The notes: generated by a model from the sequence alone, not told the origin. Positions 13,363 through 49,839 are shown, counted from the stretch's first letter. The stretch is DNA of 64,000 nucleotides from Verrucomicrobiales bacterium (GCA_002698785.1 PAAG01000036.1:1-64000); one strand, 5' to 3'. Numbers and translations are program-made.

Positions 13363-13376
13363 CATTGCACAAGAAG

Positions 13377-17284: not shown

Positions 17285-17755
17285 TCATTCAGTCGGCGGC
17301 GGGTCATTGAAACGTGCCGGATCATATTCAATATCCTCCTCCTCAAGAGCAGCTCTCTCGACCTCAATCAGATGCTGCGAGTACAGTAAAAGCGAACGAA
17401 AGACGACATCGCCAAACAAATTTTCCGGCACATCGCCCCAGGACAAACCAACCACCTCCTCCTCCCCTGACGTGTTCAACAAAAATACGCCTCCGTCATC
17501 GTGATCATACAGGACAATCCATGAGTGAGGTAACGCAACATGGGTTCGCGCCGCCAGAGTCTTTTCAATCGTATCCTCAAGTGCACTCACACCAGTGGCA
17601 TGCCAGTATCCGTAAGTCATCAGGACCCACTTTAAGTCGAGAGGAAAAGTCACGCCCAGTGTAGATTCTGCCCCGGCGATTGACTCATCCGACTCGCGAA
17701 ACCGCCCTCGAAACCATCGCTCATTTTCGAGCACAAACTGCTGATAGGGCGTCAT
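17285..17755 (-). CDS. SMI1/KNR4 (SUKH) family immunity-like protein
   Basis: A 156-residue protein with the SUKH start (IAGAESTLGVTFPLDLKWVL), the aromatic YGYWHATGV turn, and the LPHSWIVLYDHDDGGVFLL strand pair typical of the SMI1/KNR4 fold. Family members are mostly immunity proteins of polymorphic toxin systems. No nuclease or ADP-ribosyltransferase toxin is nearby, so its cognate toxin may be foreign. The acidic C-terminus is common in the family. Confidence 0.8.
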   Translation of the reverse strand: MTPYQQFVLENERWFRGRFRESDESIAGAESTLGVTFPLDLKWVLMTYGYWHATGVSALEDTIEKTLAARTHVALPHSWIVLYDHDDGGVFLLNTSGEEEVVGLSWGDVPENLFGDVVFRSLLLYSQHLIEVERAALEEEDIEYDPARFNDPPPTE

Positions 17756-17796
17756 AATTCTTGCGAAAAATTAGCGGGTAAGTTGTCGACTATTCT

Positions 17797-18303
17797 TCAT
17801 TGTGGTTTCCCAATCTCCTGAGCCATCCGAATCCCAATCAAATCGCGATTCGCATCGACCTCCACCTTCTCACCGGTATCCTGGAAACCAAGCTTCTCGT
17901 AAAACCGAATGGCCCGCGCATTGGATTCCGAAACGACCGGGTTGACCTCTGCAAACTCAGACCCCTTCGCCCAACGTAGCAGCTCCTCTACCAGCATCGT
18001 AGCCGCGCTCGATCCACGATAACTCGGATCCACCCACATCATCAGAACCTCACCCGACGGAGCCGCCCCCTCGCGATACAACGCCGCAATGCCGATACAT
18101 TCCTCATCATCGAACGCGAACTGAGTATTCCGGTCACCACCACTCGTCGTCGCCCACAGTTGCTCCTCCCACGAGCGCACATCGCGTTGCAACGACGCCT
18201 CATACGTAGAACCAAACGCCTCAGGACTCTCCTTCAGCGCCTTCAACCGCACCTCCCGGAACAGCGCGACATCATTCTTCGTTGCACGACGACAAGTGAT
18301 CAT
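17797..18303 (-). CDS. GNAT-family N-acetyltransferase
   Basis: Starting at the ATG at 18303 gives 168 residues (MITCRRATKNDVALFREVRL, the canonical GNAT strand-helix start). The LMMWVDPSYRGSSAATMLVE segment holds the acetyl-CoA pyrophosphate-binding motif (R-G-S-S-A-A variant of RGxGxA), and SNARAIRFYEKLGF is the C-terminal motif. It transfers acetyl from acetyl-CoA to an amine; the substrate is unknown. The longer reading to 18414 overlaps the next gene and is rejected. Confidence 0.88.
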   Translation of the reverse strand: MITCRRATKNDVALFREVRLKALKESPEAFGSTYEASLQRDVRSWEEQLWATTSGGDRNTQFAFDDEECIGIAALYREGAAPSGEVLMMWVDPSYRGSSAATMLVEELLRWAKGSEFAEVNPVVSESNARAIRFYEKLGFQDTGEKVEVDANRDLIGIRMAQEIGKPQ

Positions 18304-30353: not shown

Positions 30354-32987
30354 TCACCGCTTCTCGATCACATGCTCTACCGGCTCTTGGCTGGTCGCCG
30401 AAATCGAGCTCACCACAACAGACTCCTCGTTCACTTTCTCCACCCGAAGAGTCTCCCCCGGGGCTGACGGAAGCGAAAAACTATCTCCCTCTTTCACAAA
30501 AATGATATCCTCATCCTTCGTCGAAAATTCGGCGAAATACGTCGGGATAACAGTCTCAGTCTGGCGGAGCAGTTCATACGTCTCTTGGGTAGGTAGATAG
30601 ACAATCGTGATGACAGAAGCATCCAAATTGATTCCATTTCTGACCATTTCCTTCTCCTCAAACGACTCGATTCGAAATTGCCCGTCCTCAGAAGTATCTC
30701 CGACTCTCAAATAGAAATTTTCCGGCTGTGGCCATTTCGCCGTTGGCAATCGGCGAATTTGAAATCTCTCAGCATCCGGTCGAGCAGCATACTCGAGTTT
30801 GTATTCCTGCTGCTTTCGATCGACAAAAACCAGCCCTTCGATACCTGGGCTCTCCTTACCCGGCGGGGCATTCCCGATATCCGTAAACCAGCCCTCGGTT
30901 ACATATTCCTTGATCACCAGATGCTCGGTTCCATGAGGAAAGGAAACACGCTCCAGCGTCAGGATAACCGCAAGTGGTTCATCATTTAACCCCACAACCG
31001 CGTCCAGATCGCTAGCCATGGGAGAATCCCTCCTCACAAAAGCAGCATCAGAAAATTCGTTCAACTCCCCGTAAGGCGCATTAATCCCAAAAACATAATA
31101 ATCGTCCAGATCAGAAAAAGAATCACGATCAAGACCGTAATAGTCAGACTTACGTTCGAGTACGACACGATATGTCCCCGGATTCGACATTTCGCCTTCC
31201 AGGAATTTCGCCAAATGCCGGTCGTGAAATTCGACGAAAATCTCCCAGTCGACTTTCAGGTTTCCATCCTCGACCCTCACAATGACAGGAAATCCCTGAT
31301 CCCCTTCCTTAGTCGAAATGAGATACACCCAGTAAGGACCTCCCATTTCCTCATCCATCTCCATCTGGAAAAGCTGATTGGAAAATCGCGAAATCTTCAC
31401 ATATGGCCACTTCTCATAGTATGCCTCAATCGCAGGGCGTAGGCGTTCCACTTGGTAGCAGTATTTCAGTCGATCCTCCCAACTGGGAGCGTAGACGAAC
31501 GCGTCGATTATCTCTTTCACTCGGGTCAGAGGCCCCTCGTCCGGCCCCGGTGCAGCAAACGTGTCAGGATAGTCCGAGGTCTCTTCTTTCTCTCTCGCAT
31601 CTGCATCGTCAACCGAACCTGCTTGCGTAGGCTCTCCAACAATTTCAGCAACACGTTCGGCAAAATCCTTCTCCTCTTCTTTCGGCTCCGGCGCCGCACC
31701 GTTACTGTCGACGATCAACACCGGCTCGTCAGTATCGCCCGGCAAAGCTGTCGTGCTCCCGTTTTCTGAAGAAGGTTCAGCATCCCCCTCTTCACCCGAG
31801 CCGTCATCCCCACCTGACACATCCACCACATTTTCACCATCAACACCAGCATCCTTCGCCGTCCCGGAAAAACCACCAGACTTGAACTTCATGACAACAA
31901 TCACCGAAACCGACACCACGATTACCGCCACAAAAATACCCATCAAAATCTTCTCCCATCCCACGGATGTCCTCCTACCCTCCGGTCGAGGTTTCGGCCA
32001 TGGGCTTGGCGGATCTGGGTCAGGCTCAGCATCAGAAACCGGCTCAGTATCGGCACCCTCCTTACCTATGAAAAGCGATCTCATCTCAAGCCACGCATCC
32101 CTCATCTCCGACGCCGAGGCAAAACGCTCATCAGGCTCTTCCTCCAGAGCTTTTCCTACCCAATCGTCAACCTCGTCCGAGAGATCATCTCTCAGCTTGC
32201 TTGGCTTACTCGAAAAACTGGGCCGATTCTTACCCGTCAACAATTGGAATGCGATCAGGCCGATCGAATACAGATCACTCCGTTCAGAATGATCCTCAAG
32301 AAGCGGCGGCAACAACTCCGGAGCCATATACTGAATCGTGCCAATCATCGCTTCCGCACGACTACTCTTCTCCGCCGGAATCGTGTCCCCTATCTCGGAC
32401 AGGTCCGGGGGATCACCAGAATTGTCTACCTGGACCTTCGTTTCGATCCAGGTCGTCTTCAGTTGCTGCTTATACTCCTCCGGATCGATCGCCTGCGCCA
32501 AACCGAAATCGGCGACAACGATCCCATCCTCATCGAGTAAGATATTCGCCGGTTTAATATCCCTATGCAGCACCTTCGTATCGTGAGCATAAGAAACCGC
32601 ATCCAGAATCTGATCGACTATCTCAAACACATCCACCAGCGGGAACTGCGCTTCATCGTCCATTCGGTCCCGCAGCGTCACCCACCGACTCTCCCCATCC
32701 GTCGCAGGAATCCCCTTGATCAAAGGCATCTGCATCCACGTCACACCATTTTCATCAGGATGAAACCCATTCACCTCAAGAATATGAGGGTGAGCAGCAC
32801 CCAAATTCTTCATCACCCGGGCCTCGTTCAGAAAACGCGCCCGAAAACTTTCATCCCCACTGTATTCCTGATGGAGAACCTTCAAGGCAAACTCATTCCC
32901 CAATAGATCGCGAACCGAGTATACAGTCCCCATACCACCCCTCCCGATGGTATCTTGCTTAATGTATTGACCGATCGTTTCAGGCAT
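30354..32987 (-). CDS. Transmembrane Ser/Thr protein kinase (PknB-like)
   Basis: An 877-residue protein. Residues 1-300 are a complete Hanks-type kinase domain: GRGGMGTVY glycine loop, FALKV with the ATP lysine, HRDIKPANILL catalytic loop, DFGLA metal site and MAPEL activation-segment end. An insert of about 30 residues sits between DFG and APE. A membrane span follows (ILMGIFVAVIVVSVSVIVVM, about 343-365), then an acidic, low-complexity linker and an extracytoplasmic beta-rich region (about 490-877) with no PASTA repeat. It should phosphorylate cytosolic proteins in response to an envelope signal. The starts of kinase and preceding genes are well separated. Confidence 0.93.
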   Translation of the reverse strand: MPETIGQYIKQDTIGRGGMGTVYSVRDLLGNEFALKVLHQEYSGDESFRARFLNEARVMKNLGAAHPHILEVNGFHPDENGVTWMQMPLIKGIPATDGESRWVTLRDRMDDEAQFPLVDVFEIVDQILDAVSYAHDTKVLHRDIKPANILLDEDGIVVADFGLAQAIDPEEYKQQLKTTWIETKVQVDNSGDPPDLSEIGDTIPAEKSSRAEAMIGTIQYMAPELLPPLLEDHSERSDLYSIGLIAFQLLTGKNRPSFSSKPSKLRDDLSDEVDDWVGKALEEEPDERFASASEMRDAWLEMRSLFIGKEGADTEPVSDAEPDPDPPSPWPKPRPEGRRTSVGWEKILMGIFVAVIVVSVSVIVVMKFKSGGFSGTAKDAGVDGENVVDVSGGDDGSGEEGDAEPSSENGSTTALPGDTDEPVLIVDSNGAAPEPKEEEKDFAERVAEIVGEPTQAGSVDDADAREKEETSDYPDTFAAPGPDEGPLTRVKEIIDAFVYAPSWEDRLKYCYQVERLRPAIEAYYEKWPYVKISRFSNQLFQMEMDEEMGGPYWVYLISTKEGDQGFPVIVRVEDGNLKVDWEIFVEFHDRHLAKFLEGEMSNPGTYRVVLERKSDYYGLDRDSFSDLDDYYVFGINAPYGELNEFSDAAFVRRDSPMASDLDAVVGLNDEPLAVILTLERVSFPHGTEHLVIKEYVTEGWFTDIGNAPPGKESPGIEGLVFVDRKQQEYKLEYAARPDAERFQIRRLPTAKWPQPENFYLRVGDTSEDGQFRIESFEEKEMVRNGINLDASVITIVYLPTQETYELLRQTETVIPTYFAEFSTKDEDIIFVKEGDSFSLPSAPGETLRVEKVNEESVVVSSISATSQEPVEHVIEKR

Positions 32988-33118
32988 ATCTCTCCAGCAA
33001 CACTAGACCAAATGAGGAGCCAGAATAGCGCATTATTTCTCTCGATAAAGGGCAATCGCCCCTGCAATTTTTCAAAGACCACACCCCATTCATTCAACTC
33101 AGATCAAGTTCGTAAAAT

Positions 33119-33219
33119 AGAGGGGACACAAACGCAGAAAATTGCAACAATCCCCCATCCAAAGGTCCCCATGAAAACCATCACCCCCACCGCTGCAAAC
33201 GAGTCCAGCGACGCCACCG
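33119..33219 (+). repeat. Copy of the 5' end of the rhodanese-YceI gene
   Basis: Bases 33137-33219 align without gaps to 37110-37192, with about six differences by eye (near 93 percent). The match covers both the region before the start codon and the first 16 codons of the intact gene, and weaker similarity goes on to the left. It therefore is a duplicated gene end, not a conserved protein motif. It bounds one side of the 33.4-37.0 kb cassette. Confidence 0.85.
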
Positions 33220-33299
33220 CACCTGGTATCTCCAGCCCGGCAGCTCCCACGAACCCACCGGAAACGAAATCATCGGAACCGGCCGGGGGGAATAAGTAG
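33171..33299 (+). pseudogene. Truncated rhodanese-YceI start, 42-codon frame
   Basis: The frame begins MKTITPTAANESSDAT, identical to the intact gene at 37144, then leaves the homology and continues as Pro/Ser-rich codons (APGISSPAAPTNPPETKS) to a stop at 33299. It is most simply a broken gene start that gained a new end. Whether it is translated is unknown. Confidence 0.6.
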
Positions 33300-33332
33300 A
33301 AGCAAACAGGAATTGGATCCGTACAATAAAAC

Positions 33333-33357
33333 CCGGCCGCCATGACTGGGCGGTCGG
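33333..33357. terminator. GC-rich hairpin downstream of the truncated gene start
   Basis: CCGGCCGCC and GGCGGTCGG pair over 9 bases with one G-T wobble and a 7-base loop, flanked by AAAAC on the left and ATTTC on the right. It lies between the truncated frame and the convergent gene ending at 33449, so it could terminate transcription from both sides. Confidence 0.5.
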
Positions 33358-33448
33358 ATTTCACACAACACCGAGAACAGGTGCATTCCTCGAAATAAGT
33401 GCTCTCACCTTGCGGCGAGAACCCATATTCCAGCATCACTCCCCGAGC

Positions 33449-34939
33449 CTACTCTTGAGTATCAGGGCCTTTCGAATTGTCGTCACCAGAACTTGCTCCA
33501 ATAAATTCATTTGGATAGAACTTGTTCAACCACGCCTCGGCCAGTTGCCTTGCCGTGATAGGCTTAAGAAAATAATTAATGGGAACCCCACATTTACCAG
33601 CGATTGCTTTTTGAACATAGTCATCAAACGCAGTCATCATGGAGTTCGTGTCGATCACTTGATTATTCGCCGTGTCGTACGATCCGAGCGAAGACACTAC
33701 GTTCGTCACATAACTGTTGTTCAATTGCATAAAGCTCTCCCCCGTCTTGGCCTTTTCAGCGGCCGCCCCCATGGAATTCACTTCCGTATCGGTTGCTCCC
33801 TGGATGGCAGCAAGCTGCTCCATCACCGCTTTAGGGTCTGGATTCAGGTTCTGAACAGACGTCGCCACCTCATTCGACTTGATGGAAGGAATCAGCCCCA
33901 TCGTAATGACACTCGCATGAGACTGTAGATTAGAGGTGCTCAGCAGACTTTTGAGACTATCAGCAAAGGAAGCATCCAGCCCGAATTTTCCACTCGAATT
34001 GGAAAGAAATAGATTCTCACTAATCGATGCACTCATCGAGGTCGCAAAGGTAGAAGACTTCTGTGACGACTCCGATTTCTCCTCCTTCAGCAGGTGAACC
34101 ATTCCCACGAAGCTGGAACCATAAGTCGCCCCGGACAGCAGATTCATTTCAGCCTCGTCGGAACCTTTGCCTGAAATCGCCTTTTCCATCGATTTTCGGT
34201 CTGATGTATCGATTTTCTTGCCTTTACCCGTCTTCTCCACATAGAAATTCCATGCTCGAATCGCTTTCTCAGGGTCGAGCACAAACGGAGCGAAGACATC
34301 AGCCATCTTATGAGTACAGTTTGCAGTAATGACCAGTGTACCTTGAAGAGAATGCTTCGCATGCTGCGCCGCCAAGGTATCCTTCGTCGAAGTTCCCACC
34401 TTCGCCGCATAAGTAGGCGATAAGAACCCTGACGTCTGTCCGGAAACATACGTCGCAATTGCGTTCGCATGCGCCTCCTGTCCTTGTTCATTATCCTCCA
34501 CCCTGAAATACTGGGCATCCATTTTCATCGAGTCAGCAGACAGCTGAAACTGTTTGATGGCCGACTTATTATAATCCATCGGACTCTCGACCTGCCCCTC
34601 AATCTTAATGTTTCCGGCCTTGTTTCTCGCTTCCGTTATCTTTGGCTGAGCTTCGTTGTGCTTCTTGGCAAGGTTCACGGCGGCCGTAGACATCTGGGTC
34701 GTAAGTGTGTGAATTTCAGCGGCCATGGAATCGAGATCCTCTTTTTTCACATTCATGTTCATCATCTCTTGAAGAGTCATGTCCATACTTCGCTTGGCTA
34801 GAATTAGGGAGTTCAACTCAAGCTGTGCATCATCGATTGGCTTCTGCGCTTTGGCGATGTCTTTGAGAGCGTCAATCTTACTTGGATTGACGATATTCCC
34901 GAGCACCAGGCTGGGATCATAAGGGATAGTAGTAGGCAT
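33449..34939 (-). CDS. Uncharacterised 496-residue protein of the 33-37 kb cassette
   Basis: There is no signal peptide. Residues 20-115 are helical and probably coiled coil (IDALKDIAKAQKPIDDAQLE, then KKEDLDSMAAEIHTLTTQMS). Residues 190-360 are Ser/Thr/Gly-rich beta pattern (LLSGATYGSSFVGMVHLL, then SSTFATSMSASISENLFL, SHASVITMGLIPSIKS), a texture seen in some membrane-inserting proteins, but I recognise no family and claim no function. Codon use is A/T-richer than the 37-43 kb block. It is divergent from the PD-(D/E)xK-like gene with 124 bases between starts, so the two are probably co-regulated. Confidence 0.75.
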   Translation of the reverse strand: MPTTIPYDPSLVLGNIVNPSKIDALKDIAKAQKPIDDAQLELNSLILAKRSMDMTLQEMMNMNVKKEDLDSMAAEIHTLTTQMSTAAVNLAKKHNEAQPKITEARNKAGNIKIEGQVESPMDYNKSAIKQFQLSADSMKMDAQYFRVEDNEQGQEAHANAIATYVSGQTSGFLSPTYAAKVGTSTKDTLAAQHAKHSLQGTLVITANCTHKMADVFAPFVLDPEKAIRAWNFYVEKTGKGKKIDTSDRKSMEKAISGKGSDEAEMNLLSGATYGSSFVGMVHLLKEEKSESSQKSSTFATSMSASISENLFLSNSSGKFGLDASFADSLKSLLSTSNLQSHASVITMGLIPSIKSNEVATSVQNLNPDPKAVMEQLAAIQGATDTEVNSMGAAAEKAKTGESFMQLNNSYVTNVVSSLGSYDTANNQVIDTNSMMTAFDDYVQKAIAGKCGVPINYFLKPITARQLAEAWLNKFYPNEFIGASSGDDNSKGPDTQE

Positions 34940-34959
34940 TTTATTAAGCGGTTAATACA

Positions 34960-34976
34960 TTCAATTTCACATTGAA
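34960..34976. promoter_or_regulatory. Dyad in divergent promoter
   Basis: TTCAAT and ATTGAA flank TTCAC in the A/T-rich space between the divergent cassette genes. It sits 21 bases before the start of the minus gene and could be an operator for both. Confidence 0.35.
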
Positions 34977-35063
34977 CTTCCCACACAAAATTAAATCCCC
35001 TATACAAAGTCAACAAATATACACACAAAACCCCCTGCACCCTACTGCACCACCACATATCCC

Positions 35064-36608
35064 ATGCCTGACTTTCACTACGAGTTCCATCAAGAGGGCT
35101 GCGCAGGAGGAATATCTGCCCCTCTAATCGATCCCCACTCCGTCAACGGAAACCCTGGCGTGATTCGGCTTGGATATGCAGAACTAATGAATGCGCAACT
35201 TAGGCTGGGGGTCTACCCAGGAATTCAATGGAACCACGATGAAATTGCCTGGCGTGTCTATGCCTTCATGATTGGATTTGATCGGGTCGCTTCTGCAGGT
35301 GGACTCCCCGGGGGCCCACCTCCTATACATGCAGCCCCCCAGGCTCCGACATTTCTACCCAACGCCGCGTTTGCCCAGTTCCTGCCACCAAGCGAAGTCG
35401 CAAGGAAACTAGACTCAACCGAAAAGGGACAGATCGGCTATCATGTTGGAACAGCCGTGGGCGGAGCGCTCGCGACTTACCTGAATCCGATGCTCTCTCC
35501 AACTACCTGCTGGTTTGCTTTTCACCTGTCGCGATCAATTAAGGAAAACGGCCGCTTCACTTTCCTCAATACGCGTCGGCCCGATATAGCAGCATTCGCC
35601 ATAGATACGTTGCCCCCGCATAGAATTGGGCCACTCATTGTCTGGGAGAACAAGGGACACTGCTCATCAGCCGCCGGAAGCATTGCAGCAATGCGGAGAA
35701 ACCTCGATCAGACACGAGCACTGGTGGAATGTTTACAGCTACCTAACTTGCCAGTTGGCGGAGTCATGTATCCAGCAATGCAAATGAATCCTCCCTTACC
35801 CGTCGCAGCGAGATTTGCTTCTATGGTAGACGTATACAATGGAAATTATCGTGTGCAGGTGATCGATCCACCCGGAGAAGAAAAGCCACAGAGATTTCTC
35901 GACGGAAACCAGATGACTGGATTCTTGAACGCTTACTACCACTCCTTTGCAGAAATAATCCACTCACACAACGCTCGCCAGCAACGCTACGGGAAGAGAA
36001 CCTTCCACGTCGTCGCACTCCCCAGAGGAGTTACACTTGGAATGGACTCCCGCATTATAGAGTCACTGGAAGGTACCAACAATATGGCATCGATTGGTAA
36101 ATTTCTCGCAGAAGGATACCAGGAATTGAATAATGAGAAAGATGCGCTCTACGTCGATCCCACAGGAATTCTCGTGGAGTTGCAACCAAATTGGGGGCAC
36201 CCACCAAAGAAGCCGTCAGTCCCCGTTCGTCGCAAACGTGCCCGGAGCGATCCAGAAAAAGAAAATCAGCAATACAACGAGAACCCGGAAATTCCCGAAT
36301 TACTTTGGAAGCGAGTGCTGATGGCTGATCGAGTAGAAATATGGAATCCAGAAAATAACTCACTCGAAGAAATTCTTTTTGATCGATCAGACGATTACGA
36401 AATCCCTGAACAAGAGAACTCTCACGAAGACAAAGATCCGGAGGAGACATCTCAAAAACTTATCGTATCAAAATTCCAGACAGGCCAATCTGCACCCCGC
36501 GTTTCAACAGACCTCGTGTCACCCGAAATCTACTATAAAATCCGCGCCCTGTGCAGTTCCCGGGTCGCAAAGAAGAGGAGACTACTCGGAGGTGGTCCGG
36601 AACCATAA
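35064..36608 (+). CDS. Uncharacterised protein with PD-(D/E)xK-like motif
   Basis: A 514-residue cytosolic protein. Near residues 173-200, RRPDIAAF followed by IGPLIVWENKGH has the spacing and strand pattern of PD-(D/E)xK nucleases (Asp, then Glu-x-Lys). Upstream helices (about 115-170) and the downstream SIAAMRRNLDQTRALVE helix fit the fold. The C-terminal 130 residues are acidic, low-complexity (RARSDPEKENQQYNENPEIP) and end in a basic patch (VAKKRRLLGGG). No other family is recognised. Nuclease activity is inferred from the motif only. It is divergent from the 496-residue gene. Confidence 0.72.
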   Translation: MPDFHYEFHQEGCAGGISAPLIDPHSVNGNPGVIRLGYAELMNAQLRLGVYPGIQWNHDEIAWRVYAFMIGFDRVASAGGLPGGPPPIHAAPQAPTFLPNAAFAQFLPPSEVARKLDSTEKGQIGYHVGTAVGGALATYLNPMLSPTTCWFAFHLSRSIKENGRFTFLNTRRPDIAAFAIDTLPPHRIGPLIVWENKGHCSSAAGSIAAMRRNLDQTRALVECLQLPNLPVGGVMYPAMQMNPPLPVAARFASMVDVYNGNYRVQVIDPPGEEKPQRFLDGNQMTGFLNAYYHSFAEIIHSHNARQQRYGKRTFHVVALPRGVTLGMDSRIIESLEGTNNMASIGKFLAEGYQELNNEKDALYVDPTGILVELQPNWGHPPKKPSVPVRRKRARSDPEKENQQYNENPEIPELLWKRVLMADRVEIWNPENNSLEEILFDRSDDYEIPEQENSHEDKDPEETSQKLIVSKFQTGQSAPRVSTDLVSPEIYYKIRALCSSRVAKKRRLLGGGPEP

Positions 36609-36980
36609 TTAAGTCATCTCCCCGATGATCCCTTCAACCCTTTCCCTTGTTGCAGAGAAAACGGTCGTCGACACGAAAATCTCCCCGTCGCGAAACCAGT
36701 AGCCTTCTGCACTTCCGCCAATCCAAACTTCGTGCTTCGCGAGTTCAGAAATCAAATCTCCGCCACCATCTATATCGAGTACGCAGAACCGAAAGCCATC
36801 TGGCAGATCCAGTCTCTGCAAAGATTCGCATATCCGCTGAAAACCCATTACAGCCGGACATGACCAGAACGCCATCAAGAGGAGAACACCTACCTCGATA
36901 TCGAGCGTGCCGGCGTTCTCATCAGATTGATATTCATACGAGGAATACAGCCCCTTGCTGTATTCTCTTAATATCTTCAT
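36609..36980 (-). CDS. Small protein with thioredoxin-fold-like pattern
   Basis: From the ATG at 36980 the product is 123 residues; a longer reading to 37040 exists. VGVLLLMAFWSCPAVMGFQR followed by FRFCVLDIDGGGDLISELAK resembles the first half of a thioredoxin fold, where the WCxxC site is reduced to WSCPAV. Redox activity is therefore doubtful. Its stop abuts the stop of the convergent PD-(D/E)xK-like gene. It could be a binding or immunity-type partner of the cassette. Confidence 0.55.
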   Translation of the reverse strand: MKILREYSKGLYSSYEYQSDENAGTLDIEVGVLLLMAFWSCPAVMGFQRICESLQRLDLPDGFRFCVLDIDGGGDLISELAKHEVWIGGSAEGYWFRDGEIFVSTTVFSATRERVEGIIGEMT

Positions 36981-37143
36981 TCCATCAGTCCTGCCTGGCA
37001 TTCTGCTCTCACCACAATATATCAATATAAATAAATTCAAGGCTACCGAGAGTCATACCGGAAAAAAGGACACAAACCGGCGCTCGAAAAAAAGCAGGAC
37101 ACAACGGGAGAAAATTGCAATAATCCCCCATCCCAAGGTCCTC

Positions 37144-38037
37144 ATGAAAACCATCACTCCCACCGCAGCAAACGAGTCCAGCGATGCCACCTATCTCGAT
37201 GTTCGCTTGCTCGACGATTACCAGCATTCCCACATCGCCGGAGCCGTCAGCAACTGCGTGTTCGAAGTCGCCTTCACCGATCGCCTCGAAGGAGCCACCC
37301 CTGACAAAGACGCCATCTACATCGTCTACGGCGCAAACGAGAAAAGCAAAGAAGCCGAAATGGCCATCGAGAAAATGGAGCGACTCGGCTACACCAACCT
37401 CACCCTGCTCGAAGGAGGCTACACCGCCTGGACCGCTGCCGACCTCCCCACCGAAGGCACCGGCGATCCCCCTGCCGAACCCAACATTCCCGAAGGCACC
37501 CACCAGCTCGACCTCGGCCAGAGCTACCTCATGTGGACCGGACGCAACCTTCTCAATAACCACAACGGTCGCGTCGGCATCAAATCCGGCGAAGTAGAAA
37601 TCAAAGACGGCAAACTCACTGGCGGCCGCTTCGTAATCGACATGACCAACATCTGGTGCAACGACCTCCAGGGCGACGCCCACGATGGACTCATCTCCCA
37701 CCTCAAGAGCCACGACTTCTTCGACGTCGAGCACCACCCCGAAGCCGTCCTCGAAATCCGCAGCGCAAAAGCCATCGAAGACGCCCCTCCCGGCACCCAG
37801 AACCTCATCATCACCGGCGACCTCACCCTTAAAGGTAAAACCGCCCCCGTCGAGCTCGCCGCCGTCGCAGGAGTGACACCCGAGAAACAACTCGCCGCCC
37901 AGAGTTCCTTTCTCATCGACCGCACCGTCTGGAACGTCCTCTACGGCTCCGGCAAACTCTTCAGCCGAGTCGGCATGCACCTCGTCAACGACCTCGTCGA
38001 TATAGAAGTGAAGGCCGTCACGCTACCGCCTTCTTAA
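37144..38037 (+). CDS. Rhodanese-like / YceI-like fusion protein
   Basis: A 297-residue protein from the ATG at 37144. Residues 17-105 are rhodanese-like (YLDVRLLDDYQHSHIAGAVS, then LTLLEGGYTAWTAADLP), but the active-site loop reads IVYGANEKS, with Gly where the catalytic Cys of a sulfurtransferase belongs, so this half is probably binding only. Residues 118-297 are a YceI-type lipocalin-like barrel (VDMTNIW-type segment FVIDMTNIWCNDLQGDAH, then LTLKGKTAPVEL, VWNVLYGSGKLFS), whose family binds isoprenoids such as polyprenyl quinones. There is no signal peptide, unlike typical YceI. Fragments of this gene lie at 33.2 kb (5') and 43.05 kb (3'). Confidence 0.88.
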   Translation: MKTITPTAANESSDATYLDVRLLDDYQHSHIAGAVSNCVFEVAFTDRLEGATPDKDAIYIVYGANEKSKEAEMAIEKMERLGYTNLTLLEGGYTAWTAADLPTEGTGDPPAEPNIPEGTHQLDLGQSYLMWTGRNLLNNHNGRVGIKSGEVEIKDGKLTGGRFVIDMTNIWCNDLQGDAHDGLISHLKSHDFFDVEHHPEAVLEIRSAKAIEDAPPGTQNLIITGDLTLKGKTAPVELAAVAGVTPEKQLAAQSSFLIDRTVWNVLYGSGKLFSRVGMHLVNDLVDIEVKAVTLPPS

Positions 38038-38124
38038 GAGGCGTTCCCCTCTCTTACACCGCCCCACTCCGCATACCCACATGCGGGAGTTGTCCGCATC
38101 GGCACGGTAGCTTACAACACCGGG

Positions 38125-39972
38125 ATGCCCCCCAGACTCTCCCTTTCCGTTGGTGTGTGTTTGCTAGTCATCCTGCTCACCGGTCGCGCTTCCGGTGATA
38201 CCGCTACCTACGAAGTCCAGAGCAATGTCATGATCCCCATGCGGGATGGAGTTCAGCTGGCAGCAGACATCTACCTCCCCAGAAAAGACGGAAAAGTGCT
38301 CGGCGGCCCATTACCCGTCGTACTGACCCGCACTCCCTACGGAAAAGGCACGAGCGAAGCGAGAGCCTACACACCCCACGGATTCGCCGTTGTCGCACAG
38401 GACACCAGAGGAAGAGGCAAGTCAGAAGGAACGTGGACCTGGATGACCACCGACCGAGAAGATGGCTACGACACCCTCGAATGGATCGCAAAGCAGCCAT
38501 GGTCGAACGGAAAAATCGGCATGACGGGCAACTCCTACGTCGGCGCTACCCAGCATCTCGCGGCGATGTCGCAATCCCCTCACCTCACCACCGTCATTCC
38601 CTCAAACCCATCCATCAATCATGGTATCGGGAGCGTCATCTACGGCGGTGCCTTTCGTCTCCGTGTCGTGAACTGGGTCGTAGGCAATGCCGCCAACAGC
38701 AGCCTCTCCCGAGACCCCGCCTACAAAGAAGCACTGCAACGCCAGGCCGGACAGAAAGAATACTACCTCACCCACATGCCCCTTCGAAGGGGAACGACTC
38801 CGCTACGCATCATCCCGGAGTATGAAAACATGATCGTCGATATGCTGGAACACCGCCGAAACGACGAATTCTGGCGTTTCAGTAACATCATCGACTATGT
38901 CGACGAGCACAAAGATATCCCCGTCTTCATGGTCGGTGGCTGGTACGACCTCTTCAGCACCAGCACGACTGAGACCTACATGGCGCTGAAGGAAACTAAC
39001 AAAGCCCCCACCCATCTCATCATGGGACCATGGCCCCACAGCCCCGGTGGACGTTCTCACGCCCAGGTCGACTTCGGCCCCGACGCCGCCGTAAACATGG
39101 GTTCCGTAAACCGCGTCTGGTTCGATCGCTGGTTGAACAACGACGAAACCGAGTTCGGGAAAAACGTCCCTTTCCGCACCCCCGTCCGCCTCTTTGTCAT
39201 GGGAACCGGAGACGGCCACAAGACAGAAGACGGAAAGCTCTATCACGGAGGCTACTGGCGAGACGCCCCCGACTACCCCTTGCCCGAGGCAGTCGAGACA
39301 AACTACTACCTCCACACCGGTGGCGAACTCACCCCTGACAAACCAGCAGCCCCTACCGCATCCACCACCTACCAGTTCGATCCCAGCGATCCCGTGCCCA
39401 CCGTAGGCGGCTGCATCGTGGGTGGAGTCTCCGGCGCCTGGAACCAGTGGGGCGGCAAACATGTCTGGAATGCAAAAGAACCCATGCCTCTCTCCATGCG
39501 GAACGACGTGCTAGTCTTCACCACCCCTCCCCTCGAGAAAGACACCACCATCGTAGGCCCCATCACCGTCAAACTGTGGGCCACCTCTTCCGCCATCGAT
39601 ACCGACTTCACCGCCAAACTTCTCGACGTCTATCCCTCCACCAAAGAGTTCCCCGATGGATTCGACCTCATCATGGGCGACGGCATCATTCGCGCCCGCT
39701 ATCGCGAATCCGACAAGGAAGAGACCTTCATGACACCCGGCGAGACCTACGAATTCGAAATCAAGCTCGACCCGTGCAGCAACGTTTTCAAAAAAGGCCA
39801 CCGCATCCGCGTCGACATCTCCAGCAGCAACTTCCCCCGCTTCGATGTGAACCCGAACAGCGGCGAACCCGCCAACGACTACCGGCAAAAGATCATCGCC
39901 ACCAACACGATCTTCCACAACAGCGAACACCCCTCACACATCATCCTCCCCCTCGTCCCCGCAGGCGAATAG
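38125..39972 (+). CDS. Exported CocE/NonD-family hydrolase (X-Pro dipeptidyl-peptidase type)
   Basis: A 615-residue protein with signal peptide (LSLSVGVCLLVILLTGRASG). The N-terminal alpha/beta hydrolase (VMIPMRDGVQLAADIYLP, then IGMTGNSYVGATQHLAA with nucleophile Ser near residue 136) and the later MGPWPHSPGG with a catalytic His are present. The C-terminal jelly-roll (about 420-610: DVLVFTTPPLEKDTTIVGPI, then GHRIRVDISSSNFPRFDVNP) is typical of the CocE family. Members hydrolyse esters or N-acyl bonds such as Xaa-Pro or beta-lactam side chains; the substrate is unknown. Codons are strongly C-ending. Confidence 0.92.
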   Translation: MPPRLSLSVGVCLLVILLTGRASGDTATYEVQSNVMIPMRDGVQLAADIYLPRKDGKVLGGPLPVVLTRTPYGKGTSEARAYTPHGFAVVAQDTRGRGKSEGTWTWMTTDREDGYDTLEWIAKQPWSNGKIGMTGNSYVGATQHLAAMSQSPHLTTVIPSNPSINHGIGSVIYGGAFRLRVVNWVVGNAANSSLSRDPAYKEALQRQAGQKEYYLTHMPLRRGTTPLRIIPEYENMIVDMLEHRRNDEFWRFSNIIDYVDEHKDIPVFMVGGWYDLFSTSTTETYMALKETNKAPTHLIMGPWPHSPGGRSHAQVDFGPDAAVNMGSVNRVWFDRWLNNDETEFGKNVPFRTPVRLFVMGTGDGHKTEDGKLYHGGYWRDAPDYPLPEAVETNYYLHTGGELTPDKPAAPTASTTYQFDPSDPVPTVGGCIVGGVSGAWNQWGGKHVWNAKEPMPLSMRNDVLVFTTPPLEKDTTIVGPITVKLWATSSAIDTDFTAKLLDVYPSTKEFPDGFDLIMGDGIIRARYRESDKEETFMTPGETYEFEIKLDPCSNVFKKGHRIRVDISSSNFPRFDVNPNSGEPANDYRQKIIATNTIFHNSEHPSHIILPLVPAGE

Positions 39973-40005
39973 GCCTACCCTGCCACTCCCACAAAGCTTC
40001 CCCCG

Positions 40006-41217
40006 ATGAACACCACCCGACGACAATTTCTGAAAAACACCGGCGCCGCCAGTCTCGGCCTCGGCATGGCTACCCCATCATTCGCACAGTCCGCCTCAAA
40101 AAAGATCGCTCCCCCCGAAGCCTGGACCCTTCACGGCGAACAATTCCGCTACACTGGAGAACACGAAAACGGATGGATCCAGAATTTCACCTCCACCGTC
40201 GAACCCCTCCCCGACAATCGCTGGCGCGTCTGGACCAGCACCTCCGTCCCCAAGAGCGAAATCAAAAACATCGGCTACCACGAAGGAACCATCGGCGGAA
40301 AATGGAAAGCCGTCCACGCCGTGTGCACCACCGGAGAGCCAGATCCCGATGCCGAGCTGGCCATCGGAGGAATGCCCGAGGGCTCCCACCCCGTCCAGGT
40401 CGTCACCCTTCGCCTGCAGGGCGGGCGCACCCGCCTTTACTTCTGGGCCCACGGCGGAGGAGTCGTCCGCTACGTCGCCGCCGATAGCATCGACGAATCC
40501 GCACGACGCTTCCGAGTTATAAATCCTCTCACCCCCTGCCTCTACCACCCTGGCGACCGAGCCGTCAGCGGAGCCATAACCAGCGAAGCCGGCCTCACAC
40601 GACGCGCCAAGCAGGAAGCCCACCCCATCGCCGGAGAAGAACTCGCCACCGCTGCCCTTCTCTCTAACGATGCCACCAACGTCTACCAACTTCCCGACGG
40701 CACCTTCGAGATGTACTCCGTCGCCCTCGTGCAGGTAGAAAAAGACGATCCACGCTACGCCCCGCAGGACAACCTCAAAGGCTACATGCGCGTCATCGAT
40801 CGCTACACCAGTGCCGACGGACTCACTTGGGGAAACCGGAAACGCGTCATCACACCCGACGCCGACGACCCCATCGACCAGCAGTTCTACTACCTGTCCG
40901 TTACCTACACCGACCAGGGTCGCCTCGGACTTCTCGGCAGCTACAGCCTCGATGCCCAGGCCATCGACATCGAGCCATGCTACTCCGACGACGGCATCAC
41001 GTGGCACCGCCCCGCCCGCACCCCGTGGATTCCTCGCGATAAGCCCGGCAAAGGCGTCGCCACCTACCTCCTTCACGCCCCGCACAACCTCGTGCAGAGA
41101 GATGGAAAATGGTGGCTCTTCTACACCGGCGGCAACTTCGCCCACAACCACAAGCACTCCCACGGAGAACCCGACCGAGCCATCCTCGCCGCCTCCTGCG
41201 ATTCCCTCTGGGTATAA
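40006..41217 (+). CDS. Tat-exported protein, probable beta-propeller
   Basis: This 403-residue product has a twin-arginine signal (TTRRQFLKNTGAASLGLGMA). The mature part has recurring strands with 'YSDDGITWHRP', 'LTWGNRKRVITP' and 'WWLFYTGGNFAH', the style of five-bladed GH43/GH32-like or exo-acting beta-propellers. I cannot place catalytic acids with confidence. It starts 33 bases after the CocE-type gene and is probably co-transcribed. Confidence 0.8.
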   Translation: MNTTRRQFLKNTGAASLGLGMATPSFAQSASKKIAPPEAWTLHGEQFRYTGEHENGWIQNFTSTVEPLPDNRWRVWTSTSVPKSEIKNIGYHEGTIGGKWKAVHAVCTTGEPDPDAELAIGGMPEGSHPVQVVTLRLQGGRTRLYFWAHGGGVVRYVAADSIDESARRFRVINPLTPCLYHPGDRAVSGAITSEAGLTRRAKQEAHPIAGEELATAALLSNDATNVYQLPDGTFEMYSVALVQVEKDDPRYAPQDNLKGYMRVIDRYTSADGLTWGNRKRVITPDADDPIDQQFYYLSVTYTDQGRLGLLGSYSLDAQAIDIEPCYSDDGITWHRPARTPWIPRDKPGKGVATYLLHAPHNLVQRDGKWWLFYTGGNFAHNHKHSHGEPDRAILAASCDSLWV

Positions 41218-41299
41218 AGGCAGTCTGCAACAGGCCCGCCCCACAGTCCGCACTTCAGTCTCTGGCGTTGCCGACAACAGCGATCATACTGAGCAGCTT

Positions 41300-43018
41300 A
41301 TGAGAAAAGAGCTGCCCAGTCCTCACCCATTTCTCGCCATCGTGGCAGCGGCCGTCGCCTCGCTCATTCTCACGCACACCGCATTCCCCTGGGGAGGCGG
41401 ACACGATCCCCTCAACGAGATCGCCGTAGAGCACCTTCCCGCCCCCATCAGGCAAATGCTCACCCCCGAACTCCAGCACAAAATCGTCGAATGGTCCCAC
41501 GCCCCCGACGATTTCACACCGTGGGAAGAACAGACAAAAATCACACTCCACCCCGACGACCTCGCCTTTCTCCACAGCCTCGGGATGAACCACCCCTACG
41601 CCCTCCACGCACCACGTGGCCAGGCCGCAAACTTCATCCTCCTCACAAATGCCTTTCGCGAAAACGCTCCCGAGCGCATCGCCTACTGGTCCGCCTGTCT
41701 CCTCCACACCTTCGCCGACGAAGCCGCCGCCAACCACGATCCCCTCGTCCACTTCATCACCTACGGATTCAAAGGCGGCTACCAGATCGACCTTAGCGAA
41801 AGCGGCGTCCTCGACTTCGTCGAAGTCACCCGCACCACCGAAGACCGCGCCACCATCGACAACCTCCTCAAAGACTACGCCCCCAACCCACTCGGAACCG
41901 ATCCCGACGACGTCCTCGTAAAAATCATGCTCCACGGCCTCGAAGCCAACGTCTACCTCACCGAGCGCGGCGCCCGCGTCGCACACACCTTTTCCCAAGA
42001 CGCCTCCGAAGCCGAAATCACCGACGGGCGCAAAGCACTCGCCGAACTCGGCTGCTACGGCATCCGCACCGGAGTCGACGCCATCCTCACCGCCTACCAG
42101 TTCGCCACCTCCGGCGCCACCACCCTCACACTGACAAAAACCATCCAGCAGACCTACGAAGAACAGCGAACCACCTTCCTCGCCAATCGCCCCCTCTCCC
42201 ACGACGCAGCCTACCACGGACTGCTCGACACACCCGCCCATCACGACAGCCCCGCCATCGGAGTCATCCTCGAGCCATCGCAGACCATGAACAAATCCGA
42301 CCTCAGCTTCACGTCGAAATGGCTCACCTCCGCCACCATGCGCCTGCTGAGAGATACCGATACCCCCTACCGTCCCCTCGACCTCCGCACCCTGACACCT
42401 GCACACACACAAGATCCCGCCGACCTGCCAGTCATCATCATCTGCGCCGGCGCCCTTCGCCCCGCCCCCGCGCGACAATGGCTCCAGGCATACGCCGAAA
42501 AAGGCGGCCACATACTCCTCATCGGAGGCGAACACGCCGACCTCCTCGGTCCCCTGTCCGAAGCCCTCATCGACGTATCCGAAAACACCCACCTCCCCGT
42601 CACCTCCAGATACGGGCAGAACAACACCACCTACATCGACAACCTCAGCATTCGATTCCTCAACGAATTCGCCGACGAAAAACCAGACCGAACATTCCCC
42701 TTCCTTCACAACCCCGACACCAAAAGCGGATGGCAAAAGCCCAAGTGCAACTACGCCCTGCCCGCCACCACACCGAACGTCCGCCCCCTCGCCCAACTCA
42801 TAGAAGGCACCGACACCATCGACATCGCCGGAGTCGCCCTCGACCAAGACGGACGTCCCATGCACATCTTCATCCCCGAATACCTCATCTCCCCCTACCT
42901 ACTGACCGAGCCAACCACCCCATTCGATCCCTCCCGCCCCACCTTCGATCCCATCGCCACCCGACTTATGAAAGCAGCCATCAAGCTGCTCCGTTCAGAA
43001 CAATCGCCCGCAAAATAA
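41300..43018 (+). CDS. Zinc-dependent phospholipase C-like protein with C-terminal Rossmann-like domain
   Basis: The start at 41300 gives 572 residues with a signal-like start (LAIVAAAVASLILTHTAFPW). The mature end WGGGHDPLNEIAVEHL, the HAPDDF segment and LLHTFADEAAANHDPLVH carry Trp/His/Asp residues arranged as in the zinc-dependent phospholipase C / S1-P1 fold, where a mature N-terminal Trp and several His/Asp bind three zincs. Residues 310-560 (DLPVIIICAGALRPAPARQW, then GHILLIGGEHADLLGPLSEA) look like a class I glutamine amidotransferase-type Rossmann fold without an obvious Cys nucleophile. The fusion is unusual. Phosphoesterase activity is inferred. Confidence 0.75.
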   Translation: MRKELPSPHPFLAIVAAAVASLILTHTAFPWGGGHDPLNEIAVEHLPAPIRQMLTPELQHKIVEWSHAPDDFTPWEEQTKITLHPDDLAFLHSLGMNHPYALHAPRGQAANFILLTNAFRENAPERIAYWSACLLHTFADEAAANHDPLVHFITYGFKGGYQIDLSESGVLDFVEVTRTTEDRATIDNLLKDYAPNPLGTDPDDVLVKIMLHGLEANVYLTERGARVAHTFSQDASEAEITDGRKALAELGCYGIRTGVDAILTAYQFATSGATTLTLTKTIQQTYEEQRTTFLANRPLSHDAAYHGLLDTPAHHDSPAIGVILEPSQTMNKSDLSFTSKWLTSATMRLLRDTDTPYRPLDLRTLTPAHTQDPADLPVIIICAGALRPAPARQWLQAYAEKGGHILLIGGEHADLLGPLSEALIDVSENTHLPVTSRYGQNNTTYIDNLSIRFLNEFADEKPDRTFPFLHNPDTKSGWQKPKCNYALPATTPNVRPLAQLIEGTDTIDIAGVALDQDGRPMHIFIPEYLISPYLLTEPTTPFDPSRPTFDPIATRLMKAAIKLLRSEQSPAK

Positions 43019-43034
43019 ACCCCTCGACCGCACC

Positions 43035-43127
43035 CTCTACAGCCCAGAAAAACACATCAGCCGAGTTCGGCATGCACCTGTCAACGACCTCGGTAGATAT
43101 TGAGGTGAAATCGGTCACGCTACCGGC
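43035..43127 (+). pseudogene. Fragment of the 3' end of a rhodanese-YceI gene
   Basis: Aligned with 37938-38030, the segment keeps long identical runs (TCAGCCGAG, CGGCATGCACCT, GTCAACGACCTCG, GTCACGCTACCG) but has small indels that break the frame. In one frame it still reads GMHLSTTSVDIEVKSVTLP against GMHLVNDLVDIEVKAVTLP. It is a decayed relic of the last 30 or so codons of a YceI domain. Confidence 0.8.
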
Positions 43128-43245
43128 GAAGGGATCATCGAGAGACCAACTGCTTTGCTTCCCCCCCACTGGCTTCACCGGAGAAGAAAGCAATGCTCAC
43201 GGGGTTGGCGTGAACGAACCGACACCGCGGCCCGAAATCAATAAG

Positions 43246-43272
43246 GTAGAGACCTGCGGCTCGCAGGTCTAC
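43246..43272. repeat. REP-like hairpin element, copy 3
   Basis: It is identical to copy 1 across GTAGAGACCTGCG, the loop, and CGCAGGTCTAC. Neighbouring bases differ, so the element itself is the conserved unit. Confidence 0.7.
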
Positions 43273-43468
43273 GTCACAGCCCCGGCCTCCCATCCCGTGC
43301 ATCGCGAAACCGGCCTCACGCGCGTTTTCAGGGAGAGAAAAACCAATCGGCTACGGCCCGATTCAAATCTACCGAATCCCGAGTCGAACACGTGATTTTC
43401 GAGGAGAAGCGACAGATCTAGTAGAGTGCCATACTTATCAATAACTACCTCTGTCATTACATACAATC

Positions 43469-43567: not shown

Positions 43568-46501
43568 GTGAACTCATCCCAAAAAATCTTCCTCTCCTGC
43601 GTCACCGCCGAGTTCGCTCGTGAGAAGGCTCCGTTTGGTAAGACAAGGCAGGATCTCGCCGCCAAACTCCGCCGCGGCGGTCGCGAAGTAAAATCCGAAG
43701 AAGACTTTCGCCAGGCAGGCAAGGAAGCCATCCTCGAAACCCTCGACGACTTCATCCGCGACAGCGCCATCGTAGTGCAGTTCATCGGCGATCAGCTCGG
43801 AGAGAAGCCCAGCAAAAACGCCCGCGAGCGCCTCCTCGCCCGCATTGAGAAAGACGGCAACACCTTTCTCAACAACCAGACCGAAGCCTTCCTCACCGCC
43901 CTGCCTGCCTACGAGGATCTTACATACATCCAGTGGGAAGCCCTCCTCGCCCTCCACCACAATCGCCCCCTCTTCCTCTACCGCAGCAAAGACAGCAAAG
44001 CGAGCGCCGAGTTCCCGGCCTACGAAGCCCTCCTCAAACAAGCCCACACCGAGCGACACTTCACGCCCTTCGAGGACAAAGCCGACCTTATCACCCTCGT
44101 CGTCGTCGATACCCATCCCTACCTCCTTGCCGTCCCTGCCCCGCTCAACAACCTTCCCGGCTCCATCGGCTACCGCTTCAAAGGGCGAGCCACCGAGCTA
44201 CGCGAAGTCCACGAGGCCCTGCAACACGGGACCAGCGCCATCACCCAGGCCATTACCGGACTCGGTGGCATTGGCAAAACCCGGCTCGCCCTCGAGTATG
44301 CCTACCTCTACGCCGACGAATACACCGCCACCTTCCTCCTCTCCGGCGATGGCGAAAGCACCCTCATCACCAGCCTCACCGAGCTAACCAGTCCCCTCTA
44401 CCTCGACCTTGAGGCCGTCCACCACCGTGACACCGAGACCCGCCTCGCCGCCGTCCTCCACTGGCTGAGCAAAAACGAAAACTGGCTCCTCATCGTCGAC
44501 AACGTCGATTCAGAAGACGCCCGCGAAGCCATCCAATCCCGGCTCGGCCTGCTCCAGCACGGCAAAGTCCTCATTACCTCCCGCCGCAACGACTTCGACG
44601 GCCAGGTCAACGCCATGCCCCTCGGCTTCCTCAGCGCCGAAGCCGCCCGCGATTTTCTCCTCGACCGCACCCAGCGAGAACTCGCCGAAGACGATCCCGA
44701 ATCCGCCGCCCTCGATCTGCTCGTCGAAAACCTCGACGGACTCGCCCTCGCCATCGAGCAAGCCGCAGCCTACATCGCCGTCCACAAAATCACTTTTACC
44801 AATTACAACCAATACTTCGAGACCAACCGCCAGCAAGTCCTCGCCTGGAAAAACGCCAACCTGACCAACTACGACAAAACCGTCGCCACCACCTGGCTCA
44901 CCACCTTCGCTGAGTTGAGCGAAGACGCCAAAGATCTCCTCAACCAAATCTCCTTCCTCGCCCCCGAGCCGATTCCCCGAGCGATTTTTGAGGGAGAAGA
45001 CGTGCTGCCGCATGAAAGTGCGATTAATGACCTCGCCCGTTATTCTTTGGTGGAGATTCTGGATGAACCCGCCGAAACCTTTCAAGTGCATCGGTTAGTG
45101 CAGGATGTGGTTCAGGGGCGATTGGGTGAGGCAAAGGTGGATGTGTGGAGTCTACTACTCAACAAACTTGCCACGTGGGCACCGAATTCTGGCCAAGATA
45201 TTGCCAATTGGCCGAAGTGGGAGCAATTCGAGTTTCACGCAACAGAGCTTTTTCAGCGAGGAAAGGAATTCAAGGATATTCTTGATTTTGGTTACTTGAT
45301 ATCAGGATTTGCGGGGTACGAGCATTTCCGGAACGGTAATTATCCAGTTGGCGAAGCTCTGACACGTCGAGCTTTAAGCGTGCATCAAGAACTGCTCGGC
45401 GTTGAACACCCTGCCACGCTGGCGCGTTCGAACGATTTGGCAGTGATGCTTCTCTCTAACGGTGAATACGAGAAGGCCGAGACGCTTTTCCGACAATCGC
45501 TTTATGTAAGCGAACGAATTTTGGGAGTTGAGCACTCATCAACTTTGACGAACGCAAGTAATTTGGGGTTATCGCTACACAAAAGATCTGATTATGATGG
45601 AGCAGAATCGCTATTTCGGAGAACGTTGGAGATAAGAGAACGAGAACTCGGAGAAGAGCATCCAGACACATTAACAAGCTTGAATAACCTAGCTTCCTTG
45701 TTGGATTCAAAAGGCGAATTTGAAGAGGCAGAACTACTTTTTCTGCGCGCACACAATGCGTCCAATAAAACATTGGGCCCCGAACACCCTAACACATTAG
45801 TTACCTTAGGAAATCTCGCCTGTCTACTGCGAGGAAGAGGCGCATATGAAGAAGCGGAACCGCTTTATGTGCGGGTATTGAGGGGGCTTGAGCACACCCT
45901 CGGAAAAGAACACCCAGACACTTTGCTATGGCTGAGCAATTTCGCCGGACTTCTCGCTGGAAAAGGGGAACATGAAAGAGCATCTGAGATTCTTCGTCGA
46001 TCCCTTGAAGGCCTAGAACGAGTTCTCGGCAAGGACCATCCTACTACATTGACGAGCGTAAATAATTTAGGACTTTCATTGAAAAAACAAGGCGTATATA
46101 GAGAAGCTGAGTTATTTTACAGACGAGCTTGGGAAGGAAGAGCGCGAGCGCTTGGTTCGGAGCATCCCAAGACGCTGTCCAGTATAAACAATCTTGCCGT
46201 GTTGTTATTCGAAATCGGCGATTTTGGAGAAGCGAAGCCTCTGTTTCGACAAGTTATATCTGGAAACGAGCGAATCCTAGGAACGGAGCATCCAGATACC
46301 TTGTCGAGTATTAATAACCTAGCATGCCTGCTCGAAACGCAAAAAGAGCTTTTGGAAGCAGAGGTTCTTTATAAACGAGTAGCCAACGCAGCGGAAGCAA
46401 CGCTCGGAGAAGAGCATCCACATACACGGATTTACAAAATGAACTTACAGGACTGCCAAACCGCCCTTGAGAAATCCAAAGATCCTCCTTCCGACACCTG
46501 A
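43568..46501 (+). CDS. TIR-like / NB-ARC / TPR protein, paralogue 1
   Basis: A 977-residue protein starting at GTG. Residues 1-80 (KIFLSCVTAEFAREK, then REVKSEEDFRQAGKE and AIVVQFIGDQLG) are a TIR/DUF4062-like domain. NB-ARC motifs follow: GLGGIGKTR (P-loop, about 231), WLLIVDNVD (Walker B, about 305), KVLITSR, GLALAIEQA and FQVHRLVQD. Nine 42-residue kinesin-light-chain-type TPRs end it (about 590-965). The architecture is that of NLR-like STAND proteins that act in antiphage defence or signalling. Codon use is C-ending up to about base 44980, then becomes A/T-richer to the end, which suggests a recombinant gene. It has the same length as its neighbour and is 57 bases upstream of it. Confidence 0.9.
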   Translation: MNSSQKIFLSCVTAEFAREKAPFGKTRQDLAAKLRRGGREVKSEEDFRQAGKEAILETLDDFIRDSAIVVQFIGDQLGEKPSKNARERLLARIEKDGNTFLNNQTEAFLTALPAYEDLTYIQWEALLALHHNRPLFLYRSKDSKASAEFPAYEALLKQAHTERHFTPFEDKADLITLVVVDTHPYLLAVPAPLNNLPGSIGYRFKGRATELREVHEALQHGTSAITQAITGLGGIGKTRLALEYAYLYADEYTATFLLSGDGESTLITSLTELTSPLYLDLEAVHHRDTETRLAAVLHWLSKNENWLLIVDNVDSEDAREAIQSRLGLLQHGKVLITSRRNDFDGQVNAMPLGFLSAEAARDFLLDRTQRELAEDDPESAALDLLVENLDGLALAIEQAAAYIAVHKITFTNYNQYFETNRQQVLAWKNANLTNYDKTVATTWLTTFAELSEDAKDLLNQISFLAPEPIPRAIFEGEDVLPHESAINDLARYSLVEILDEPAETFQVHRLVQDVVQGRLGEAKVDVWSLLLNKLATWAPNSGQDIANWPKWEQFEFHATELFQRGKEFKDILDFGYLISGFAGYEHFRNGNYPVGEALTRRALSVHQELLGVEHPATLARSNDLAVMLLSNGEYEKAETLFRQSLYVSERILGVEHSSTLTNASNLGLSLHKRSDYDGAESLFRRTLEIRERELGEEHPDTLTSLNNLASLLDSKGEFEEAELLFLRAHNASNKTLGPEHPNTLVTLGNLACLLRGRGAYEEAEPLYVRVLRGLEHTLGKEHPDTLLWLSNFAGLLAGKGEHERASEILRRSLEGLERVLGKDHPTTLTSVNNLGLSLKKQGVYREAELFYRRAWEGRARALGSEHPKTLSSINNLAVLLFEIGDFGEAKPLFRQVISGNERILGTEHPDTLSSINNLACLLETQKELLEAEVLYKRVANAAEATLGEEHPHTRIYKMNLQDCQTALEKSKDPPSDT

Positions 46502-49575: not shown

Positions 49576-49722
49576 AACCCGACCGCGAAAGACTGGTTGA
49601 AATATTTTGCTCTATCCTCTCCCTCCTCGATGGAGTCACCGAAGCGCCAGAAGCCCTCAGGCAAATTCACAGAAATGCCCTATAAGTCGGGTAAAAGACC
49701 CAAAATGAGGGGAAATGCAGGA

Positions 49723-49839
49723 AAATGATAGCCACCCATCATTTCCCCAACATCGCCAAAACACTAACAAACAACCACTTACACCAAAAGAACCCCGTTT
49801 TTCACCCAAAAACGAAAACCCTGTAAAATCTTAACATTT
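49723..49839. repeat. 117-bp intergenic repeat, copy 2
   Basis: It starts with AAATGAT-N8-ATCATTT followed by CCCCAACATCGC, and ends with AAATCTTAACATTT, as at 6131-6247. Weaker similarity reaches left to about 49535. It abuts the 3' end of the minus gene at 49852. Confidence 0.75.

Follow-up and report, generated by a model that had tools for sequence, protein, structure and literature searches.

In integrative elements of the icd/e14 type, the attachment site is the end of a gene; the element carries a replacement for this end, and the original 3' end is displaced. Foreign DNA is joined in a manner similar to that considered below by homology-facilitated illegitimate recombination, which has been described for natural transformation in Acinetobacter, Streptococcus pneumoniae and Pseudomonas stutzeri (PMC3240628, PMC2884548). 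Such recombination has also been invoked, tentatively, to explain the displaced gene 3' ends in the immunity-gene arrays of Vibrio (PMC5361080). Here, we analyze a bacterial locus in which fragments matching the two opposite ends of a gene are found on either side of the intact gene.

The locus is located in the window, that is, the whole stretch of DNA that was analyzed, which comprises the first 64 kb of the 73-kb contig C39 from a 7.0-Mb genome represented by 60 contigs. The intact gene, hereafter RY, encodes a fusion of rhodanese (residues 13-99) and YceI (residues 122-291) domains, both identified with Pfam (Table 1). Those relatives of RY that carry names belong to Verrucomicrobiota, one among them to Verrucomicrobiales. 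The orthologs in the related genomes G006 and G004 are 57% identical to RY, and no closer relative was found among 387 genomes of the phylum.

Table 1. Features of the RY locus and its flanks, in window coordinates
Feature	Coordinates	Strand	Basis
Left-flank gene for a Ser/Thr protein kinase, oriented divergently to the 5' fragment	30354-32987	-	Pfam PF00069
Displaced RY 5' end (5' fragment): 47 nt of leader and 16 codons	33124-33218	+	91% identity to 37097-37191
ORF opened by the 5' fragment, 42 codons	33171-33299	+	ORF listing, sequence
Gene A, phage-type, 496 aa	33449-34939	-	Relatives in IMG/VR contigs
Gene B, orphan, 514 aa	35064-36608	+	No relatives in searches
Gene C, orphan ORF, at most 143 aa	36609-37040	-	ORF
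RY 5' end matched by the 5' fragment	37097-37191	+	Alignment to 33124-33218
RY, intact rhodanese-YceI fusion gene, 297 aa	37144-38037	+	Pfam domains, orthologs
RY 3' end matched by the 3' fragment	37938-38028	+	83% identity to 43034-43125
S15 family peptidase/hydrolase gene (cargo)	38125-39972	+	Pfam PF02129, PF08530; RY-like codon usage
Gene D, predicted Tat-signal exported protein (cargo)	40006-41217	+	NCBIfam Tat signal; codon usage
Gene E (cargo), 572 aa; its stop codon immediately precedes the 3' fragment	41300-43018	+	Relatives; codon usage
Displaced, frame-broken RY 3' end (3' fragment)	43023-43125	+	83% identity over 43034-43125
REP-like hairpin repeat, about 115 nt past the 3' fragment	43239-43279	+	Repeat copies elsewhere
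NB-ARC/TPR gene, right flank	43568-46501	+	Pfam

The 5' fragment aligns with RY without gaps over 95 nt, from 47 nt before the RY start codon (ATG) through codon 16. An earlier note on this DNA had placed a near-identical copy at 33137-33219 with about 93% identity, and over that range 76 of the 83 positions are the same (92%). The decayed copy of the 3' end that it also reported was confirmed at 43034-43125; the alignment reaches about 43023 when a 12-nt gap is permitted, so that the fragment begins directly past the stop codon of gene E, and it ends two codons short of the RY stop. The reading frame of this fragment is destroyed by +1/-1/+1 indels, as expected once function is lost. The spacings, previously given as 4 kb upstream and 5 kb downstream, measured about 4.0 and 5.1 kb. 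On both sides the homology to RY breaks off abruptly, at 33218 and about 43023, respectively, and the longest runs of identity with RY are 17 nt in the 5' fragment and 13 nt in the 3' fragment.

Gapped local alignments yielded scores of 161 (5') and 131 (3'), compared to maxima of 50 and 51 among 300 codon-block shuffles per fragment, which excludes chance similarity. Neither fragment has a further match in the 7.0-Mb genome, and a dispersed repeat family was accordingly excluded. An insertion sequence or transposon was not indicated either: the 30-46 kb region contains no inverted repeat pair of at least 30 nt, and no transposase family was detected between the repeats. The ORF opened by the 5' fragment is in the same frame as a 114-aa ORF (32955-33299), and its last 26 codons bear no relation to RY. 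The conserved 47 nt of upstream sequence and the open frame are what would be seen if the 5' copy were a retained functional leader providing this ORF with a promoter, a ribosome-binding region and its first codons. However, the tail of the ORF has no homologue in the own-genome sample (stretches adding up to about 1.3 Mb, compared with themselves), the 3' fragment is plainly broken and the pair of fragments is explicable without function, so that a functional leader appears highly improbable.

When the fragments are aligned with RY in the RY frame, nine coding substitutions are found, 8 of which fall at third codon positions and 8 of which, taken as single changes, are synonymous. The third-position excess has P = 0.0008 against an even spread. 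Under models of free decay, for which we estimate an expected third-position share of about 0.47-0.58, the probability of 8 out of 9 is 0.01-0.06, and it is still about 0.06 if half of the changes accumulated in the decaying fragment. The pattern resembles that between two working alleles, the older of which was broken only after it had diverged, and with moderate, though not strong, confidence we prefer such a history to simple decay. Decay is what a tandem duplication of RY would entail, with three copies in direct order, later insertion of the cargo and erosion of the two outer ones until short ends were left. The three RY pieces are all in direct order, and tandem pairs are found both on C39, where the NB-ARC/TPR genes at 43568-46501 and 46559-49492 (977 aa each) share about 70% nucleotide identity across the first 1.7 kb, and on contig C29, which carries a tandem pair of kinase genes. 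However, decay should affect all codon positions, the outer copies are represented by opposite ends only, with no middle and no complete or near-complete second copy, and the codon usage of RY and the genes downstream of it is unlike the rest. Duplication is thus rather unlikely.

The codon usage in question is shared by RY (GC3 of 0.76), S15 (0.73), D (0.75) and E (0.76), compared to a mean of 0.588 (SD 0.068) for a sample of 771 ORFs of this genome. The four values are about 2.0-2.6 SD over the mean, at about the 96th-99th percentile, and their codon-usage distances reach the 98th-100th percentile when genes of comparable length are taken as the reference. By contrast, codon usage is ordinary in genes A and B, which are on the low-GC side of the ordinary range, in the kinase gene on the left and in the first NB-ARC gene of the right flank, and the edges of the atypical block are the RY start and the 3' fragment. 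Because this atypical usage is common to the four genes and unlike both the flanks and the A-B-C cassette, RY-S15-D-E looks like a co-acquired block. The earlier view of the 33.4-37.0 kb segment as the mobile cassette was not borne out, since its codon usage is ordinary and the compositionally foreign part is RY-S15-D-E. In other species of the genus, S15, D and E are found at separate loci without RY (relatives of D, 53-74% identical, at other loci of the genus; relatives of E, 67% in G024 and 44% in G025, with no RY nearby), and RY, for its part, is found in other species unaccompanied by S15, D or E. The cluster was therefore assembled in this lineage or in its donor. No donor genome for the block was found among the genus genomes examined or, for RY, among the 387 genomes of the phylum.

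We see an even prospect that a single, older RY gene (RY*) once resided here, that both fragments are what is left of its ends, and that its middle was replaced by an incoming intact RY together with cargo. Replacement is favored because the fragments complement each other as the two ends of a gene whose middle is found nowhere else; because nearly all substitutions (8/9) are synonymous third-position changes, of the kind that separates functional alleles; because the distinct codon usage of RY-S15-D-E has its edges at the RY start and the 3' fragment; and because S15, D and E lie apart in relatives, without RY. The choice between replacement and duplication is made solely on composition and on codon positions. 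The incoming DNA, from a related source of higher GC content, would have had S15, D and E behind an intact RY of its own and would have paired through this RY with RY*, and joining to the chromosome inside RY* would have caused the loss of its middle, leaving the leader and 16 codons on the left and the last ~100 nt on the right, straight after gene E. The A-B-C cassette would have been added at the left edge, either together with the block or independently of it, to give the present order: leader and 16 codons, A-B-C, RY-S15-D-E, 3' end. One complete RY would be kept in this way and the cargo gained. Homology-facilitated illegitimate recombination would be the simplest joining route; alternatively, single-crossover integration of a circle followed by one or more deletions could give the same product. 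Several points speak against replacement. An illegitimate origin is required for both junctions, and such a pair is less common than an illegitimate junction combined with a homologous one; the number of substitutions, nine, is small; the A-B-C cassette requires an additional step; and the two fragments could derive from two separate events. The earlier proposal that integration copied the gene ends agrees with replacement in the layout and in integration leaving gene ends behind, but the ends would be those of an older, diverged RY, judging from the third-position changes, and not copies of the present gene.

The A-B-C cassette separates the 5' fragment from RY. Nine full-length relatives of gene A (43-60% identity) were identified in IMG/VR contigs, whereas the gene is absent from 55 relatives of the genome and has no PHROG or Pfam match. 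In one of the viral contigs (L201), the gene A relative is located within a run of genes nearly devoid of database matches, which, judged by eye only, resembles phage structural genes. The structure model of gene A, built from a two-row alignment, was uninformative (pLDDT of 35), and this poor model at most suggests long N-terminal helices. For gene B, no match was obtained in plasmids, viral contigs, PDB, PHROGs, NCBIfam or the 55 relatives, and its model, built without an alignment, was equally uninformative (pLDDT of 32); a PD-(D/E)xK-like motif (RPDI...VWENKG) was noticed by eye only. Gene C has no Pfam, PHROG or NCBIfam match. The 5' fragment and RY act as direct repeats around this cassette, as the earlier note put it, in their geometry only, and because the runs of identity reach at most 17 and 13 nt, excision at present, including the formation of circles across the repeats, is unlikely. 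Neither a syntenic relative nor an empty site was found when RY, D, E and S15 were sought in the genus and RY in the 387 genomes of the phylum. Likewise, among the relatives examined, none of which is syntenic at the locus, there was no occupied site lacking the fragments.

Self-comparison of the ~1.3 Mb of the own genome revealed two more displaced gene ends. On contig C41 (L130), the order is a Ham1/RdgB-family gene on the minus strand (14871-15476), a kinase-sulfatase-modifying-factor gene (15758-17830) and a second, decayed copy of the Ham1 gene, and the locus extends to 18357; the 5' end of this copy is 92% identical over 183 nt and the remainder 73-82%. On contig C51 (L191, 8830-12861), a LysM gene, ending at 9375, has a second copy of its 3' end at 12749-12860 (83%), separated from the gene by a BCCT transporter gene and one other gene. 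Both loci show the same form as the RY locus and for this reason also favor replacement. Because the C41 locus suggested a connection with Ser/Thr kinases, 29 kinase-region stretches were inspected; gene-end repeats were present only in the window and on C41, and a general link was rejected.

The gene ends also bring to mind site-specific integration of the icd/e14 type, in which the RY fragments would be the ends displaced by elements that carried a replacement end. Each insert is bounded by direct repeats of a gene end, and gene A has viral relatives. However, no integrase or recombinase family match was obtained for A, B, C, S15, D or E, and different genes were hit (RY, Ham1 and LysM), at both 5' and 3' ends; the longest identities (17 and 13 nt) are also short, although still compatible with a short core. 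Such integration is distinctly unlikely. It is a longer shot still that RY, Ham1 and LysM reflect one process in a lineage with recurrent, possibly machinery-assisted gene gain, whereby cargo would enter precisely at either end of a gene already present, the incoming DNA would restore this gene, and its old end would come to lie beyond the cargo. In 318 kb of sequence from relatives, only matches resembling repetitive elements were detected, a sample too small for a comparison of rates.

The assembly is of the metagenome type, and an artefact of assembly or binning, in which strain variants of RY were joined in one contig, has to be considered. The number of contigs, an estimated contamination of 5% and the rarity of the repeats of C39 and contig C6 in the remaining sample are in line with an artefact. 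However, chimeric joins arise in shared identical sequence, whereas the junctions here are in unshared sequence, and the RY repeats differ by 9-17%, with indels, which makes an artefact very doubtful. C39 and C6 have two repeat families in common that are rare elsewhere in the genome sample, and C39 might for this reason not come from the same genome as every other contig. RY-S15-D-E differs from its neighbors within C39, a contrast that is independent of whether C39 belongs.

The REP-like hairpin GGTAGAGACCTGCGGCTCGCAGGTCTAC is present in the window at 1119-1159, 13370-13410 and 43239-43279 and in 6 copies on C6 (L089/L090; 8552, 10776, 19115, 23423, 24580 and 25032); the 10 matches in the genome are all in the same orientation and clustered on C6. 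This contig also carries a gene similar to REP-associated tyrosine transposases (RAYT) at 169-1227 (Y1_Tnp; NCBIfam REP_Tyr_transpos below the cut-off), the 5' and 3' ends of which recur separately along C6 without the middle, at 77-90% identity (L089, 111-331 versus 15795-16015, and 1037-1230 versus 7315-7508, 8761-8924 and 11047-11246). These copies might be derivatives that are non-autonomous or have lost internal sequence. An intergenic repeat of 129 nt (81-90%) is located in the window at 6119-6247 and 49712-49839 and on C6 (L089) at 16856-16984, and among the sampled contigs it was found on C39 and C6 only.

Other duplicated or composite sequences were observed. The kinase gene on the left flank (30354-32987) is a mosaic, with a kinase domain 51% identical to a sequence on C41, a middle part (residues 458-716) 66% identical to C24 and a C-terminal part (residues 706-870) 52% identical to C21. 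At the right end of C39 (L035), 63001-63403 and 72299-72702 form a direct repeat of 404 nt with 85% identity, 9.3 kb apart. On contig C1 (L092), 1-2114 matches 15647-17633, with ends that are identical (808 and 873 nt, 100%), the pattern expected of a circular element of about 15.6 kb.

Most likely, DNA exchange of known kinds left its scar in the RY locus, and no new system is involved. Taken alone, the scar is a routine outcome of recombination, yet it is a readable record of the gain of accessory genes while the resident gene was kept. Species of this bacterial group have little gene order in common, and the same scar, counted across genomes, would offer a direct measure of homology-anchored gene capture. 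As in icd/e14-type elements, the intact gene is on one side of the insert and a displaced gene end on the other; unlike in these elements, there is no recombinase gene and no long identical core, and the target genes differ. The locus also resembles Rhs loci and the type VI secretion system (T6SS) arrays of Vibrio, with their displaced effector 3' ends and orphan immunity genes (PMC5361080), in that a new module displaces a gene and the old 3' end is left downstream, but no toxin/immunity system is involved here; a rhodanese-YceI fusion is affected, and both of its ends are left. Finally, although both edges look illegitimate and the anchor is central, as read from the sequence, the locus has in common with homology-facilitated illegitimate recombination what look like homology-free junctions, a recipient gene partly lost or duplicated, and foreign DNA beside a homologous anchor gene, the anchor being RY, 83-91% identical to the two fragments, and the foreign origin of the insert being supported by the GC3 of RY-S15-D-E and the kinship of gene A to genes of viral contigs.
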